From the NCBI GenBank assembly GCA_903888625.1, contig CAISUD010000023.1, positions 1 through 35,228 of the forward strand: a stretch of DNA of 35,228 nt, read 5' to 3'. The translations under genes were made by a program, and so were the position numbers. This DNA is from an uncultured bacterium. GTDB lineage: Bacteria; Patescibacteriota; Minisyncoccia; Phycocordibacterales; UBA9973. The notes beneath the pieces were generated by a model, which was not told where the DNA came from, made no database searches, and saw only the letters and a list, made by a program, of their open reading frames with translations. Shown here one piece after another: positions 3,991 through 33,471 of the stretch; the stretch's first letter is position 1; the number at the start of each line of letters is the position of its first letter.

Positions 3991-4155
3991 ATGAAAACAA
4001 TAATGACTTCTCAAGATCTTTTTCTTAAATGGAGAAAAAGCTTTATGCCGAAATTATCGGTATTTAAAAGAATAAGAAACACAATTATCGACATATACAA
4101 ATTAAATATGAAGATAAGAATATCAATAAACCAAGGAGGTGAAAGATGGAAGTAA
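3991..4155 (+). CDS. Small basic hypothetical protein, possible leader ORF
   Basis: This is a 54-codon frame (MKTIMTSQDLFLKWRK...) that is strongly basic and has no recognised domain. It ends inside the next gene: its last codons contain the AGGAGGTG ribosome binding site and overlap the 4146 start by 10 nt. That arrangement is typical of translational coupling. There is no good ribosome binding site of its own. It may be a real small gene, a translated leader, or chance. The 3949 start in the ORF track coincides with the predicted transcription start and is not preferred. Confidence 0.35.
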   Translation: MKTIMTSQDLFLKWRKSFMPKLSVFKRIRNTIIDIYKLNMKIRISINQGGERWK

Positions 4156-4400
4156 TTGAAAACATAATAAGTGGACCAACATCGATAGTTGGTCTGATTC
4201 TTTTTTTATTCGGATTCTTCATGTTTATATTTTTTACTTCAAAAGAAGAAATCCTAATATTAGGATCTGAAATAAAAAATATTGTAATAACACTTATCGC
4301 AATGATAGGATTTATATTTTTATTTACTAGTCTTATCTTAAAATTATTAATGTTTCAAAAAATTGAAACAAGAAAAATATCAGAAGAAGATTTTAAGTAA
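4146..4400 (+). CDS. Small two-helix membrane protein, unknown
   Basis: This 84-aa protein is preceded by an excellent ribosome binding site (AAGGAGGTG, 5-6 nt from ATG), the strongest in the window. Two hydrophobic segments are evident, about residues 13-31 (SIVGLILFLFGFFMFIFF) and 46-68 (IVITLIAMIGFIFLF), followed by a charged cytoplasmic-type tail. I do not recognise the family. It sits alone between the division operon and lysS and ends shortly before a strong terminator. Its canonical SD contrasts with its SD-less neighbours, which may mean high expression or a different origin. Confidence 0.7.
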   Translation: MEVIENIISGPTSIVGLILFLFGFFMFIFFTSKEEILILGSEIKNIVITLIAMIGFIFLFTSLILKLLMFQKIETRKISEEDFK

Positions 4401-6446: not shown

Positions 6447-6452
6447 AGTATA
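6447..6452 (-). promoter_or_regulatory. -10 box of greA (leaderless geometry)
   Basis: TATACT on the minus strand ends 5 nt before the greA ATG. No convincing -35 hexamer is present. If used, the mRNA would begin at or within 2 nt of the start codon. Confidence 0.45.
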
Positions 6453-6492
6453 TTAGCTTTTTTTTATTAAAAAGTAAAGTATAAATTAAAAG

Positions 6493-6520
6493 TTGCGATA
6501 TATTTTTTATATGCTAAGAT
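6493..6520 (+). promoter_or_regulatory. Promoter of rpsU-ybeY-ftsA
   Basis: TTGCGA, a 16-nt spacer, then TAAGAT, which ends 8 nt before the rpsU ATG. This predicts a leaderless or nearly leaderless transcript. It is divergent from greA. Confidence 0.5.
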
Positions 6521-6528
6521 ATGCCTAT

Positions 6529-6756
6529 ATGGCAAAAACAATTATTGAGGTGAAGAAAAATCCAAATGAAAACAATGCGAGTGTTTTGCGTCGTTTTTCT
6601 CGTCGGATTCAAGAATCTAGCATTATCCAAAAAGTTAAAAAAAACCGTTACAACGAAAGAAAAGAATCCAAACTAAAAATCAAAAAAAGTGCTTTAAAGC
6701 GCATGGCTAAAAGAAAAGTCAATGAAAAGCTCCGCAAACTAGGTAAAATAAGCTAA
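6529..6756 (+). CDS. rpsU: Small ribosomal subunit protein bS21-like
   Basis: This 75-aa very basic protein has the bS21 pattern: an N-terminal strand (IIEVKKNPNENNASVLRRFSRRIQES) where bS21 has VRENEPFDVALRRFKR, followed by two basic helices rich in K and R. The start is set at ATG 6529 (MAKTIIEV), because the longer frame from 6493 begins inside the predicted promoter. bS21 helps form the mRNA-binding platform near the anti-SD. Its stop lies 1 nt before the ybeY ATG, so the two genes are cotranscribed. Confidence 0.85.
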   Translation: MAKTIIEVKKNPNENNASVLRRFSRRIQESSIIQKVKKNRYNERKESKLKIKKSALKRMAKRKVNEKLRKLGKIS

Positions 6757-9127: not shown

Positions 9128-9143
9128 AAATTTTTGATATAAT
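9116..9143 (+). promoter_or_regulatory. Transposase promoter with repeat-borne -35
   Basis: TTGCCT (inside the palindrome), a 16-nt spacer, then a perfect TATAAT, followed by 6 nt and the ATG at 9150. The transcript would be leaderless, and the repeat itself contributes the -35 element. Confidence 0.6.
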
Positions 9144-11190: not shown

Positions 11191-11209
11191 GGTTTTTACA
11201 TTTTTTTGT

Positions 11210-11215
11210 TATACT
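11210..11215 (+). promoter_or_regulatory. -10 box of trxB (leaderless geometry)
   Basis: TATACT ends exactly 6 nt before the trxB ATG at 11222. The -35 is weak (T-rich, overlapping the terminator tail). Confidence 0.5.
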
Positions 11216-12231: not shown

Positions 12232-12711
12232 CTATTGTGCAGGAATTGGTGCAGTTGGATTTAGAGTTGTCGGTCTTATTTGGATAGACTGTGCATTTAC
12301 ACTACCATCTGGATTGGCTGTGCCGGTAATGCTAACTTGCTTACCTATTGATAAATCATTCGCTGTGCCATCGGTTGTTTTCATAATACTAGTTGTCCCA
12401 GTATAGAAAACAATTTTGGAACCTTGAGTAGTTGCACCTGTGGTAGGAGCTCCATTTTGCCCTCCCATAGCTTTTAGTTCTACAGTGATACTGTTTGCAT
12501 CCATAGCCACAATTTGGCCAGTAACAAATCCCCCACCGGCTCGCATTCCTTTTCCACCGGCCATACCACTTCTACTAAATTGACCAGGAACATTTTGATT
12601 ACTACTTGCAGTTTGTGCTTTATTTTTCCCATAAGAAGAACCGATAAAAAAGAAAACGAAAGCGACTACGACAAAACCAACTATTAAACTTATTTTTATT
12701 TTTTTATTCAT
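12232..12711 (-). CDS. Secreted/anchored DUF5666-like protein
   Basis: This 159-aa protein has a signal-anchor (ISLIVGFVVVAFVFFFIGSSYG), a Gly/Arg-rich low-complexity stretch (SGMAGGKGMRAGGGFVTG) and a small beta domain (GQIVAMDANSITVELKAM...GSKIVFYTGTTSI...IGKQVSITGTANPDGSVNAQSIQI). The G-x-I-x-x-x-x-x-x-I-x-V / G-x-V-x-I-x-G pattern matches DUF5666-type OB-like domains. It lies downstream of the MacAB-type exporter genes, separated from them by the IR-bounded leader at 12710-12812. It probably acts extracytoplasmically; the function is unknown. Confidence 0.7.
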   Translation of the reverse strand: MNKKIKISLIVGFVVVAFVFFFIGSSYGKNKAQTASSNQNVPGQFSRSGMAGGKGMRAGGGFVTGQIVAMDANSITVELKAMGGQNGAPTTGATTQGSKIVFYTGTTSIMKTTDGTANDLSIGKQVSITGTANPDGSVNAQSIQIRPTTLNPTAPIPAQ

Positions 12712-12812
12712 CCCGAACGAAATAAAAGTTTATTGTTTCGCTTTTATTTAAATTAATATTTATAAATTATTTTTCTCCCGTAAAAATATACGACATGAAT
12801 TTCGTACGGGAT
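12710..12812 (-). promoter_or_regulatory. IR-bounded leader 1: arms pair across ~100 nt and cover the start codon
   Basis: In minus-strand RNA, ATCCCGTACGAAAT at the 5' end (right at the macB-like stop codon) can pair with ATTTCGTTCGGGAT (13 of 14), whose final AT begins the ATG of the DUF5666 gene. A competing local hairpin exists: the same 5' arm's TCCCGTA pairs with a TACGGGA 22 nt downstream. An AAATAAAAG/CTTTTATTT hairpin next to the 3' arm competes too. Confidence 0.55.
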
Positions 12813-21463: not shown

Positions 21464-22045
21464 TTAAATCATTTTTCTTAATTCCAAAATTGCTCGACGA
21501 TGATAACTTTTTACCGTATTTAAGGGTTTTTTTAGCATCTTACTTATTTCATCAAAAGTCATCTCTTCCATGTAGTGCAGTACCAAAACTGTTTTATATT
21601 CTACTCGAAGTTGATCTAATAATTTATTTAATAAATCAGAATTTTGTAATTTTTGCAAAGCCTCGTCGGGCAAGATAGCTTCATCGGGAATATTTTCAGC
21701 AAAATCAAAATTGTCATCTCCATCAATTCTATCGTGTGCTTGTGAATTTAAGTCAGCAAAATTTAAAACTTTTCTTTTTCGTAAAAAATCTATAGTACTA
21801 TTTTTGGCAATGGCAAAAAGCCAAGTTTTGAAATTCTGACCAATTTTATATTTTTTCAAATTCTTCCAAACTTTCACAAAAACTTCTTGCGTGATATCTT
21901 CTGCCTCCCCCGTCTTGCCGACCATTGACCGAATAAAGTTATAAACAGGTTTTGTATATCTATCAAGTAATATTCTAAAAAGCTCTTCATCCCGAGAGTT
22001 TAAATATTCGGCAATAATTTTTTCATCATCATCATTTACCAGCAT
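21464..22045 (-). CDS. ECF-type RNA polymerase sigma factor
   Basis: This 193-aa sigma70 family group 4 protein has sigma2 (about 20-85: LFRILLDRYTKPVYNFIRSMVG, AEDITQEVFVKVWKNL, FKTWLFAIAKNSTIDFLRKRK) and sigma4 (about 135-190: LLDQLRVEYKTVLVLHYMEEMTFDEISKMLKKPLNTVKSYHRRAILEL, with a clear helix-turn-helix). The 40-residue acidic linker between them lacks sigma3. It is the first gene of a minus-strand run of envelope genes ending in the MacAB-type exporter, which makes these genes candidate regulon members. Confidence 0.93.
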   Translation of the reverse strand: MLVNDDDEKIIAEYLNSRDEELFRILLDRYTKPVYNFIRSMVGKTGEAEDITQEVFVKVWKNLKKYKIGQNFKTWLFAIAKNSTIDFLRKRKVLNFADLNSQAHDRIDGDDNFDFAENIPDEAILPDEALQKLQNSDLLNKLLDQLRVEYKTVLVLHYMEEMTFDEISKMLKKPLNTVKSYHRRAILELRKMI

Positions 22046-22068
22046 ACATTTAATAATAGCATTTTTGC

Positions 22069-23035: not shown

Positions 23036-23293
23036 TTATTTTGTATTTTGACCATAATAAAATCCAATTACCACACCCATCATACCGATTAAGCCTGATA
23101 CTAGATATTTTATAAGATCCGATTTTTCAGAAGTAATATTTCCCCAAAGTGTATACACTATTGATAATAATAATACAGCTGCAAACAAGACTAAAAGCCC
23201 TATAGCTAATTTGCCACGTACTTTCTCTTGTGCCTCGGGTACAGATCCAGAACCAGGAATATCTTTAGTGTTTTTATTAAAATTCGTGTCCAT
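23036..23293 (-). CDS. Small two-TM membrane protein, unknown
   Basis: This 85-aa protein has a hydrophilic N-terminus (MDTNFNKNTKDIPGSGSVPEAQEKVRG) and two membrane helices (LAIGLLVLFAAVLLLSIVYTLW; LIKYLVSGLIGMMGVVIGFYYG). Its start overlaps the last base of the upstream gene, so the two are translationally coupled. I do not recognise a family. The short charged loop between the helices resembles small holin-like or accessory proteins, but nothing decides this. Confidence 0.6.
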   Translation of the reverse strand: MDTNFNKNTKDIPGSGSVPEAQEKVRGKLAIGLLVLFAAVLLLSIVYTLWGNITSEKSDLIKYLVSGLIGMMGVVIGFYYGQNTK

Positions 23294-23646
23294 TATTTTT
23301 TATAAATTGAATATTCGAGCGACCTAACTTTTTTATCATTAAGGGAATTTATTCTAAATGATATATATGCCGTACTTTTATCTGCTAATTCTCCAAATTT
23401 AACAAAGTCTGTAGTACCATATGTTGTTTCGTTAATATTTATAAGAATAAATTTTATAGTTTTTGATTGCGAAGTATCAATTTTAATAATTGCTTTTCCA
23501 TTATCATTATTATTTTTTTCAAAAGAAAAAACAATTGAATAATCATTCAAGGTCATTACTATTGGTTCATTTTCAAGAACTTGAATAATACCTGAATCAA
23601 GTAGTTCATAGTCCCCATTTTTAATTTTTTTAATCACACCAATCAT
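23293..23646 (-). CDS. Hypothetical beta-rich protein (possibly DUF6864-like)
   Basis: This 117-aa protein, MIGVIKKIKNGDYELLDSGIIQVL..., reads as alternating strands (SIVFSFEKNNNDNGKAIIKID; TIKFILININETTYGTTDFVKFG; TAYISFRINS) and ends in a basic tail. It may resemble the DUF6864 family; I am not certain. It is the first of a two-gene unit with a very well-formed leaderless promoter directly upstream. No signal peptide is seen. Confidence 0.6.
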   Translation of the reverse strand: MIGVIKKIKNGDYELLDSGIIQVLENEPIVMTLNDYSIVFSFEKNNNDNGKAIIKIDTSQSKTIKFILININETTYGTTDFVKFGELADKSTAYISFRINSLNDKKVRSLEYSIYKK

Positions 23647-23652
23647 AAATTT

Positions 23653-23681
23653 ATTATATTAAATATAAAACAAATTGTAAA
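23653..23681 (-). promoter_or_regulatory. Leaderless promoter of the 23646-23036 unit
   Basis: The minus strand reads TTTACA, a 17-nt spacer, perfect TATAAT, 6 nt, then ATG (23646). This is the best-formed example of the window's leaderless geometry. Confidence 0.7.
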
Positions 23682-23832: not shown

Positions 23833-23904
23833 TGACTCTACCGGGAATCGAACCCGGATTTAGTGCTTGAAAAGCACTCGTCCTAACCGTTAGACGATAG
23901 AGCC
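23833..23904 (-). tRNA. tRNA-Glu (anticodon TTC)
   Basis: It has a 7-bp acceptor GGCTCTA/TAGAGTC with one G-U, anticodon arm AGTGC-TTTTCAA-GCACT giving TTC, and T-arm CCGGGTTCGATTCCCGG. The discriminator is A and no CCA is encoded in full. Confidence 0.95.
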
Positions 23905-23944
23905 AATATGAATACTATAACACTTTTCATAAAAAAACAAAAGG

Positions 23945-23973
23945 TTGAACTTAATCTGTTAGTAGTATACACT
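23945..23973 (+). promoter_or_regulatory. Leaderless promoter of the 23980 gene
   Basis: TTGAAC, a 17-nt spacer, TACACT, 6 nt, then ATG at 23980. This geometry decides the start: the ATG at 23908 would lie upstream of the promoter. Confidence 0.55.
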
Positions 23974-23979
23974 ATATGT

Positions 23980-24675
23980 ATGGGTTCGAATATACATTTA
24001 AAAAATAAAGCTATCTCTCTTCGTAAGAGTGGAAAGAGTTACAACAACATAAGAAAAACTTTGGGTATTACGTCAAAAGGAACTCTTAGTCATTGGTTTA
24101 AAAATATAAAATTGTCTAAAAAATCTACAAAACTTTTAGATAAAAATAATAAACTCGCCCACAAAAGAGGTTTATTCACCGCTAATAAAAATAGGGAAAT
24201 TAAAATTGAAAGTGAAAATAAAAAAGCGTATATTGAAGGTCAAGATCATATACAATCAATATCTAAAAAGGAACTTCTTCTAATTGGTGCGGCTTTATAT
24301 TGGGGAGAAGGAACAAAATCAGAAAGAGGTTCAGTATCGCTTTGTTTTAGTAATTCTGACCCGTTTATGATATTAGTTTATATGAAATTTATTCGAGAAA
24401 TATTGAAAATTCCAGAAGAAAGAATTAGGGCTGGAATTCACATATATCCATCAATATCTGTTGATGAGGCAAGAAAATTCTGGTCAAAAACAACAAAATT
24501 ACCAGAAAATAGATTTTATATCATTACACAAGTTAGTCGAGCAAGTCAAAATAAAAGACCATTTAATATATTGCCATATGGTACTATCGCTATAAAAATC
24601 AATAATCGTCAACAATTTTACAAAGTTAAAGGAATGATAAAAGGAATAGTACAAAAATCACAAACAATATCGTAA
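23980..24675 (+). CDS. HTH plus LAGLIDADG-like hypothetical protein
   Basis: This 231-aa protein (from MGSNIHLKNKA) has an N-terminal resolvase-like helix-turn-helix (KAISLRKSGKSYNNIRKTLGITSKGTLSHWFKN), a basic linker and a C-terminal domain. That domain holds ALYWGEGTKSERGSVSLCFSNSDPFMILVYMKFIREIL...IPEERIRAGIHIYPSISVDEARKFWS, which resembles homing-endonuclease-type (LAGLIDADG-like) folds of the WGEG..K...SNSDP family. The role is unknown; such proteins may be regulators or decayed mobile endonucleases. It sits head-to-head with tRNA-Glu. The start 23980 replaces 23908 because of the promoter. Confidence 0.6.
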   Translation: MGSNIHLKNKAISLRKSGKSYNNIRKTLGITSKGTLSHWFKNIKLSKKSTKLLDKNNKLAHKRGLFTANKNREIKIESENKKAYIEGQDHIQSISKKELLLIGAALYWGEGTKSERGSVSLCFSNSDPFMILVYMKFIREILKIPEERIRAGIHIYPSISVDEARKFWSKTTKLPENRFYIITQVSRASQNKRPFNILPYGTIAIKINNRQQFYKVKGMIKGIVQKSQTIS

Positions 24676-24681
24676 CTGAAA

Positions 24682-24710
24682 TTGATAAAAAAGTAGAAAA
24701 ATATTATACT
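24682..24710 (+). promoter_or_regulatory. Promoter of the uridylyltransferase gene
   Basis: TTGATA, a 17-nt spacer, TATACT, then 8 nt to the ATG at 24719. The predicted transcription start falls within about 1-3 nt of the start codon. Confidence 0.7.
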
Positions 24711-28238: not shown

Positions 28239-28257
28239 AATATGATATATTGGGGAT

Positions 28258-31982: not shown

Positions 31983-32047
31983 ATTAGTATACTAGCATAA
32001 AATATTAAAAAAACAATTTCCAAAAAACTATTATTTGTGTTAAATTG

Positions 32048-32152: not shown

Positions 32153-32389
32153 TTAAATTAGTCCCAATTTCCTAGCTACTTCAGTTTTATTAAATCCAAC
32201 AGCCCAATCGCCATCAATGACAATGACCGGTACTCCCATTTGGCTGGTCAAATTTACCATTTCTTTTCTTTTAGCTAAATCGCTAGCTACGTCGTATTCA
32301 GTATAAGCAATGTTGTTAGCCTTAAAGAAATCCATGGCCATATGACAATAGTGACAAGTTGGAGTTGAATATATTTCTACTTTTTTCAT
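32153..32389 (-). CDS. Glutaredoxin-like protein
   Basis: This 78-aa thioredoxin-fold protein, MKKVEIYSTPTCHYCHMAMDFF, has active site CHYC near the N-terminus, the TVP-like cis-Pro in MGVPVIVIDGDWAVGFN and the terminal GFNKTEVARKLGL. NrdH/glutaredoxin-3 type by size. It may accept electrons from glutathione-independent reductases such as the TrxB at 11222, which is inference. It is preceded by an IR-bounded leader whose arm covers the ATG. Confidence 0.9.
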   Translation of the reverse strand: MKKVEIYSTPTCHYCHMAMDFFKANNIAYTEYDVASDLAKRKEMVNLTSQMGVPVIVIDGDWAVGFNKTEVARKLGLI

Positions 32390-32491
32390 CCCATTAGAAA
32401 TTATTCCATTCGTACGTATAATTACTATACATAAAAACAGATAATTTGTTATTCTAGTAATTTTGTCCTATTAGTGAATTTCTAACGGGAC
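32388..32491 (-). promoter_or_regulatory. IR-bounded leader 3 upstream of the glutaredoxin gene
   Basis: Minus-strand arms GTCCCGTTAGAAAT and ATTTCTAATGGGAT pair over all 14 positions, allowing two G-U pairs. The core differs from leaders 1 and 2 (TTAG instead of TACG) on both arms. The 3' arm ends in the ATG. The 5' arm can alternatively pair locally with CTAATAGGAC. A TAAAAT box at 32503-32498 would start RNA right at the 5' arm. Confidence 0.6.
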
Positions 32492-33452: not shown

Positions 33453-33458
33453 ATTATA
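33453..33458 (-). promoter_or_regulatory. -10 box of pyk (leaderless geometry)
   Basis: Perfect TATAAT on the minus strand, exactly 6 nt before the ATG at 33446. The -35 region is weak. Confidence 0.5.
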
Positions 33459-33471
33459 ACATGTTTTTTAA

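Follow-up and report, generated by a model that had tools for sequence, protein, structure and literature searches.

Putatively leaderless extended -10 promoters and loss of the anti-Shine-Dalgarno sequence in Nomurabacteria-like Patescibacteria

Introduction

Leaderless genes in which a -10 box lies directly beside the open reading frame are known from Deinococcus-Thermus (PMC12340547) and from Actinobacteria (PMC3160421, PMC3898074). A 16S rRNA lacking the anti-Shine-Dalgarno (anti-SD) sequence was recorded by Amin et al. (2018) in 128 of about 20,600 taxa, among them Chryseobacterium and its relatives, Mycoplasma and Carsonella, and the main text of that survey does not mention Patescibacteria (PMC6107228). 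The mitochondria of mammals also lack an anti-SD (PMC10582724).

Leaderless promoters and anti-SD loss are each known elsewhere, and our literature search found neither leaderless initiation nor anti-SD loss described for CPR/Patescibacteria, where work on CPR ribosomes (Tsurumaki 2022) may mention them; neither "leaderless" nor "Shine-Dalgarno" appears in the text of a review of the Patescibacteria from 2024. The initial annotation of the DNA studied here had called leaderless initiation poorly documented for Patescibacteria, which agrees with the literature that we found.

Data and methods

The window is the whole 35,228-nt stretch of DNA that was analysed. Its genome is a draft of 903,631 bp in 64 contigs (97% complete, 33% GC), of which 422 kb (47%) was unmasked and analysed, with 397 called genes. 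Genes were called with a simple caller written for this analysis, which ignores upstream signals, and promoter boxes were scored by a matrix derived from other Patescibacteria, with a threshold passed by 1% of background positions. The valS loci, found via ValRS, number 48 with our own genome counted and include Nomura-, Zambryski-, Vogel-, Taylor- and Kaiserbacteria; the actinobacterial loci from this search were too few for a positive control.

Results

Promoter boxes and start codons in the window

The focal gene, which carries the label DUF6864, is preceded on the minus strand by TTTACA-N17-TATAAT-N6-ATG exactly as first described, with AAATTT as the minus-strand spacer between the TATAAT and the ATG at 23646. 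No match to it was found in the 59 relatives searched, so that its promoter cannot be footprinted. The boxes of the window are the following.

23644-23646, minus strand: start codon of the focal DUF6864 gene (gene 23293-23646)
23653-23658, minus strand: TATAAT -10 box, 6 nt 5' of the focal ATG (matrix score 7.9 at spacer 6)
23676-23681, minus strand: TTTACA -35 box of the focal gene, 17 nt from the -10 box
23945-23950, plus strand: TTGAAC -35 box of the 23980 gene
23968-23973, plus strand: TACACT -10 box, 6 nt 5' of ATG 23980
9135-9143, plus strand: extended -10 TGATATAAT, 6 nt 5' of the Y1-transposase (RayT) ATG 9150 (score 10.9)
11207-11215, plus strand: extended -10 TGTTATACT, 6 nt 5' of the trxB ATG 11222 (score 9.7)
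33453-33461, minus strand: extended -10 TGTTATAAT, 6 nt 5' of the pyruvate kinase (pyk) ATG 33446 (score 9.9)
28243-28251, plus strand: extended -10 TGATATATT, 6 nt 5' of the valS ATG 28258 (spacing kept across the class)
31989-31997, minus strand: extended -10 TGCTAGTAT, 6 nt 5' of ATG 31982 of a 76-aa ORF (score 8.7)
22053-22061, minus strand: extended -10 TGCTATTAT, 7 nt 5' of the ECF-type sigma factor ATG 22045 (score 9.3)
6512-6520, plus strand: extended -10 TGCTAAGAT, 8 nt 5' of the rpsU (bS21) ATG 6529 (score 8.1)
6450-6455, minus strand: TAATAT -10 box, 8 nt 5' of the greA ATG 6441 (from aligned relatives)
24705-24710, plus strand: TATACT -10 box, 8 nt 5' of the nucleotidyltransferase (uridylyltransferase) ATG 24719

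The initial annotation had listed nine genes with a -10 box close to the ATG, and at the spacing that it gave, seven of them pass the threshold of the matrix, which was built from other genomes: RayT, trxB, the 23646 gene, the 23980 gene and pyk at 6 nt, rpsU and the uridylyltransferase at 8 nt. The box proposed for tsaD (TAGATT, 6 nt) scores under the threshold. For greA, the TATACT proposed at 5 nt is possible, but the TAATAT at 8 nt is the preferred reading because the promoters of relatives, aligned and read case by case, recurrently carry TTGACTTTT-N17-TAnnnT at 6 to 9 nt from the ATG. Three genes absent from the list also have a box, namely valS (6 nt), the 31982 ORF (6 nt) and the ECF-type sigma gene at 22045 (7 nt); the matrix scan found none at 5-9 nt in front of ftsZ, hsp20 and several other genes of the window.

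The expectation that such geometry allows start codons to be corrected is supported: 10 genes of the type that stands first in a transcription unit have a better-placed alternative ATG, against about 1.7 expected. In these genes the alternative ATG has a site at 6-7 nt which the called start lacks, and control spacings yield 1-3 such genes. The start called at 23908 is likely to belong at 23980, which is favoured over the upstream ATG because the TACACT box sits 6 nt 5' of it; the ATG at 23908 adjoins a tRNA gene (23833-23904, minus strand).

A separate observation concerns intergenic elements of about 50-105 bp with inverted 14-bp arms (ATCCCGTTAGAAAT ... ATTTCTAACGGGAT), of which the 422 kb hold 10 pairs. 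Copies lie at 12711-12811 and 32389-32490 of the window, at L006:7564-7640, L016:12958-13007 and L018:8185-8249, and at other places, and many of them have an arm that stops at a start codon (CGGGATG). In anatomy these elements resemble integron attC sites or REP-type elements; their core mismatches attC.

Spacing, gene context and conservation

Among the 397 genes, 66 have a TATAAT-like hexamer ending exactly 6 nt 5' of the start, against 5.56 expected from dinucleotide shuffling (Poisson p about 1e-46). The comparison of TANNNT-to-start distances with shuffled upstream sequence, which the initial annotation had proposed as a check, gave 95 observed against 18 expected at spacer 6. The genome-wide peak stands precisely at 6 nt and has a shoulder at 7; the first T of the box lies at -12, within the 10-12 bp or so before the start codon at which the TANNNT of TA-led genes (Zheng et al. 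2011) is looked for. The logo of 89 sites reads TRTGnTATAAT-N6-ATG, with a weak TTG near -35, and this form fits a sigma-70 extended -10 promoter from which transcription would naturally begin at the A of the ATG.

The context of the genes points in the same direction, the spacer-6 box being present in 22 of the 76 divergent genes, 22 of 117 distant co-directional genes and 10 of 131 close, operon-type genes. The TRTGn, the TTG near -35 and this enrichment at divergent and distant genes are the marks of a promoter serving the first gene of a unit. Matrix sites at 5-9 nt precede 37 of the 76 divergent genes, or about 46% above background; the corresponding values for distant and operon-type genes are 26% and 13%, and in the same-genus genome G132 the three classes stand at 59%, 29% and 8%. 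These percentages are probably lower bounds, the threshold being strict, and many genes that come first in their unit have no detected box. Operon-internal genes make up about one third of all genes, and their starts concentrate a few nucleotides from the upstream stop.

Passed through the same pipeline, a Lactobacillus replicon of 32% GC (pMP118) has a spacer-6 box in 1 of 112 genes and a Shine-Dalgarno (SD) motif in 51 of 112 unit-first genes. G119, a class-level relative within Patescibacteria that keeps the anti-SD, has an SD in 43 of 102 and 6 matrix boxes against 5.1 expected, hence no excess. Paceibacteria-type loci show the 6-nt peak whether their GC content is 34, 41 or 49%.

The geometry is kept in orthologues. 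Of the -10 boxes in the 30 nt next to the valS start, the best falls 6-10 nt 5' of the ATG in 43 of the 48 loci. The pattern TGNTATAATN6ATG occurs 47 times in our genome, where its reversal occurs once, and summed over 58 genomes of other classes it occurs 285 times, against 25 reversed. Two genomes of family label f22, G109 and G157, stand out with 100 and 86 such sites, more than any other genome sampled in the phylum; the anti-SD is nevertheless retained in both (TTACCTCCTTTCTTGAG), and G109 uses SD.

Shine-Dalgarno motifs in the mRNAs

In our genome SD-like 4-mers are at or under background overall. A purine-rich SD 5-9 nt before the start is present in 4 of 190 unit-first and 5 of 134 operon-internal genes, which does not exceed its frequency at control positions, and the pairing energy to the canonical 16S tail is weaker just 5' of starts than farther upstream; in the SD-using controls it is much stronger just 5' of starts. 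More generally, five sampled genomes without anti-SD make little or no use of SD, and it is common in two that retain the anti-SD (G119 and G109). On the anti-SD-lost side, SD is at background in our genome, G132, G163 (placed there by its family) and G118. G231, which lacks the anti-SD, has a small excess of SD-like motifs at unit-first genes only, 7 against 1 of 112, and the pooled named Paceibacteria without anti-SD display a mild excess, likewise confined to unit-first genes, 19 against 7 of 180. The count of AGGAGGN5-8ATG per genome was discarded as a measure of SD use, being too noisy (2 of 11 sites in G231 stand at called starts).

Of the plausible starts in the window, just one was found to have a strong SD.

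4134-4139, plus strand: AGGAGG, in front of an 84-aa membrane-protein-like ORF (4146-4400)

The SD ascribed to this gene at the outset is real, and only one other start with an SD of the AAGGAGG type was found among the called genes of the 422 kb. Although the genome has no anti-SD, the SD of this ORF is complete (AAGGAGGTGA); the ORF has no Pfam match and no relatives in viral contigs. Possibly the gene is foreign, or its SD motif has another role.

The 3' end of the 16S rRNA

At its 3' end the 16S rRNA has GGATTAATTCAATTTG in place of GGATCACCTCCTTTCT, and the CCTCC of the anti-SD is gone. The assembly holds just the last 152 nt of the gene (L013, G000:C10); for that reason the Rfam search of the genome gave no match, and the piece was located by motif search. 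Aligned to the Rfam model, helix 45 (GUAGCGGAAGCUGC) is intact and is followed by the tail GAUUAAUUCAAUU where the model has GAUcACCUCCUUu. Our genome and its close relatives have no CCTCC-like core after the intact helix 45. The loss is read here from the 16S gene, and the mature tail may be trimmed or edited. One 16S end is present in our draft genome, and the two-contig G132 has one full 16S, without anti-SD. This change in 16S, which the initial annotation had not seen, lends the result most of its weight.

In every member of the order whose 16S end is readable, the genome's own 16S is without CCTCC. In the class, the 129 genomes with a readable end comprise 48 with an intact anti-SD, 15 with TCTCC, 7 with a partial form and 59 with no CCTCC-like core; the other classes nearly always retain the anti-SD. 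Among named genomes it is lost in 23 of the Paceibacteria type with a readable end, and it is kept in one of the Yanofskybacteria and in genomes of the Daviesbacteria and Levybacteria type. Since intact and lost states coexist within one family label (f7, f165), the loss has probably occurred more than once, a pattern to which mis-binning could contribute.

Several observations stand beside these counts. G185 and G252 each have a second 16S end with an intact CCTCC (G185:C6:260-320, G252:C89:92-152), the other end in each being without it; the CCTCC-bearing ends are likely to be contaminating contigs. In another class, family label f71 (G106, G147, G092, G135, G166, G207) has a weakened anti-SD (GGAACATYTCC, GGAACACTTCC), possibly an independent early decay. 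The protein bS21 adjoins the anti-SD in other ribosomes; here it is divergent (rpsU, window 6511-6756), with 19.4 bits against a Pfam cut-off of 27. Era binds GAUCACCUCC, and no Era was found over the cut-off in our order; the absence of Era was rejected as the cause of anti-SD loss, as most of the anti-SD-keeping Patescibacteria tested are also without a clear Era.

Discussion

A model for initiation

The model we propose for Nomurabacteria-like Patescibacteria, in which we have considerable confidence, combines extended -10 leaderless promoters, loss of the anti-SD and SD-independent starts of operon-internal genes. It is built on what the sequences display: a promoter-type motif, its fixed spacing, context dependence and conservation, and the absence of both SD and anti-SD. 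From these we infer that the main sigma factor would read the extended -10 (TRTGnTATAAT, with a weak -35), set so that the first transcribed base would be the A of the start codon. Most messages of unit-first genes would begin with AUG or 1-3 nt before it and would be translated by leaderless initiation, SD pairing being presumably unavailable in a lineage whose 16S lacks the anti-SD. The operon-internal genes would start without SD, most likely by termination and reinitiation on the same mRNA, which their position near the upstream stop would fit. The leaderless-type geometry is broader in the phylum than the loss of the anti-SD, which suggests, short of proof, that leaderless use came first. 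Plausibly, such use, seen across the phylum, relaxed selection on the anti-SD, and the loss followed in parts of the class.

As the main mode for unit-first genes, leaderless initiation is well supported, though indirectly, by the promoter logo, the gene context, conservation, the SD-using controls and the anti-SD loss. The stronger claim of the initial annotation, that it is the default, appears too broad, since a third of the genes are operon-internal, some 13% of these having a box, and about 26-46% of unit-first genes exceed the strict threshold. The latter figure also leaves room for mixed use, in which leaderless initiation would be one important mode and many unit-first genes would be leadered and start via protein S1 or unstructured leaders. 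An S1-domain protein is encoded, and genes such as ftsZ and hsp20 lack a box at 5-9 nt; but strict thresholds miss true sites, and G132 of the same genus reaches about 59% of divergent genes, so that we take mixed use seriously without favouring it.

The TATAAT-like element could, alternatively, be translational, an AT-rich ribosome-binding or Kozak-like signal on leadered messages without SD, as in Bacteroidetes. Flavobacterium indeed has leadered initiation without SD and an A-rich upstream region, for which leaderless messages are not the explanation (PMC6847099). However, the TGn extension, the TTG near -35 and the 17-nt spacing between -35 and -10 at the focal gene are promoter features, the element is enriched at divergent and not at operon-internal genes, and its distance to the A of the ATG fits a sigma-70 start, all of which makes a translational role improbable.

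A new SD system, in which the altered 16S tail would pair with an altered mRNA motif, seems to us very improbable. The tail TTCAATTTGAA is itself conserved in several members of the order, but in our genome and in G132 upstream pairing with it is no stronger than in shuffles, no matching k-mer is prominent 5' of operon-internal starts, and in the survey of Amin et al. no altered anti-SD was matched perfectly by an altered SD (PMC6107228). Duplex energies and the k-mer scan having lent it no support, this pairing was rejected.

Finally, that the geometry is a composition artefact, through chance nearness of TATAAT-like hexamers and ATG in AT-rich DNA or a caller picking such starts, is scarcely credible even in a genome of 33% GC where TANNNT is frequent, and is ruled out by the AT-rich Lactobacillus control and by conservation: the signal is sharp to one nucleotide at spacer 6 (66 against 5.6 in shuffles), the same peak appears at 49% GC and none in the SD-using 32% GC replicon under the same caller, the caller is blind to upstream signal, and valS and greA keep the geometry in their orthologues.

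Returning to the model of leaderless promoters with anti-SD loss, its extension to the scale of the class is one that we think rather probable: a large part of one class would have given up SD pairing on the side of the ribosome as well as of the mRNA, and merged promoter and translation start into TRTGnTATAAT-N6-ATG, mitochondrion-like yet with operons, the anti-SD having decayed in grades (CCTCC, TCTCC, partial, none) and probably repeatedly.

The anti-SD is regarded as near-universal in bacterial 16S rRNA, and here it is often lost in an uncultured class, alongside putatively leaderless promoters. Gene finders that seek an SD will misplace starts in such genomes, and in an expression system for such bacteria the -10 box should sit 6 nt 5' of the ATG. 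Intact, weakened and lost forms offer a natural series: what maintains the anti-SD, how do operon-internal genes start, and does leaderless use permit the loss?

Comparison with known systems

The taxa of Amin et al. resemble this genome in having a 16S tail without CCTCC and mRNAs without SD; the survey does not tie their loss to leaderless promoters (PMC6107228), and here about half of the sampled class is concerned. Flavobacterium johnsoniae and other Bacteroidetes share the mRNAs without SD, but they usually keep the anti-SD and their leaders average 33 nt (PMC6847099), whereas the geometry described here predicts no leader. Deinococcus-Thermus and Actinobacteria are alike in the TANNNT a few bp 5' of the start codon, in the large share of genes concerned and in the re-annotation of starts that it makes possible. 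Unlike our genome, they keep SD-led genes beside the leaderless ones; here SD is absent, the anti-SD is lost and the -10 is extended (TRTGn), as read from the sequence. Mammalian mitochondria, whose mRNAs are leaderless, come close in combining the lack of an anti-SD with leaderless messages, the latter being predicted here. In contrast to them, the present genome is bacterial, with operons, promoters of the sigma-70 type and many operon-internal starts.
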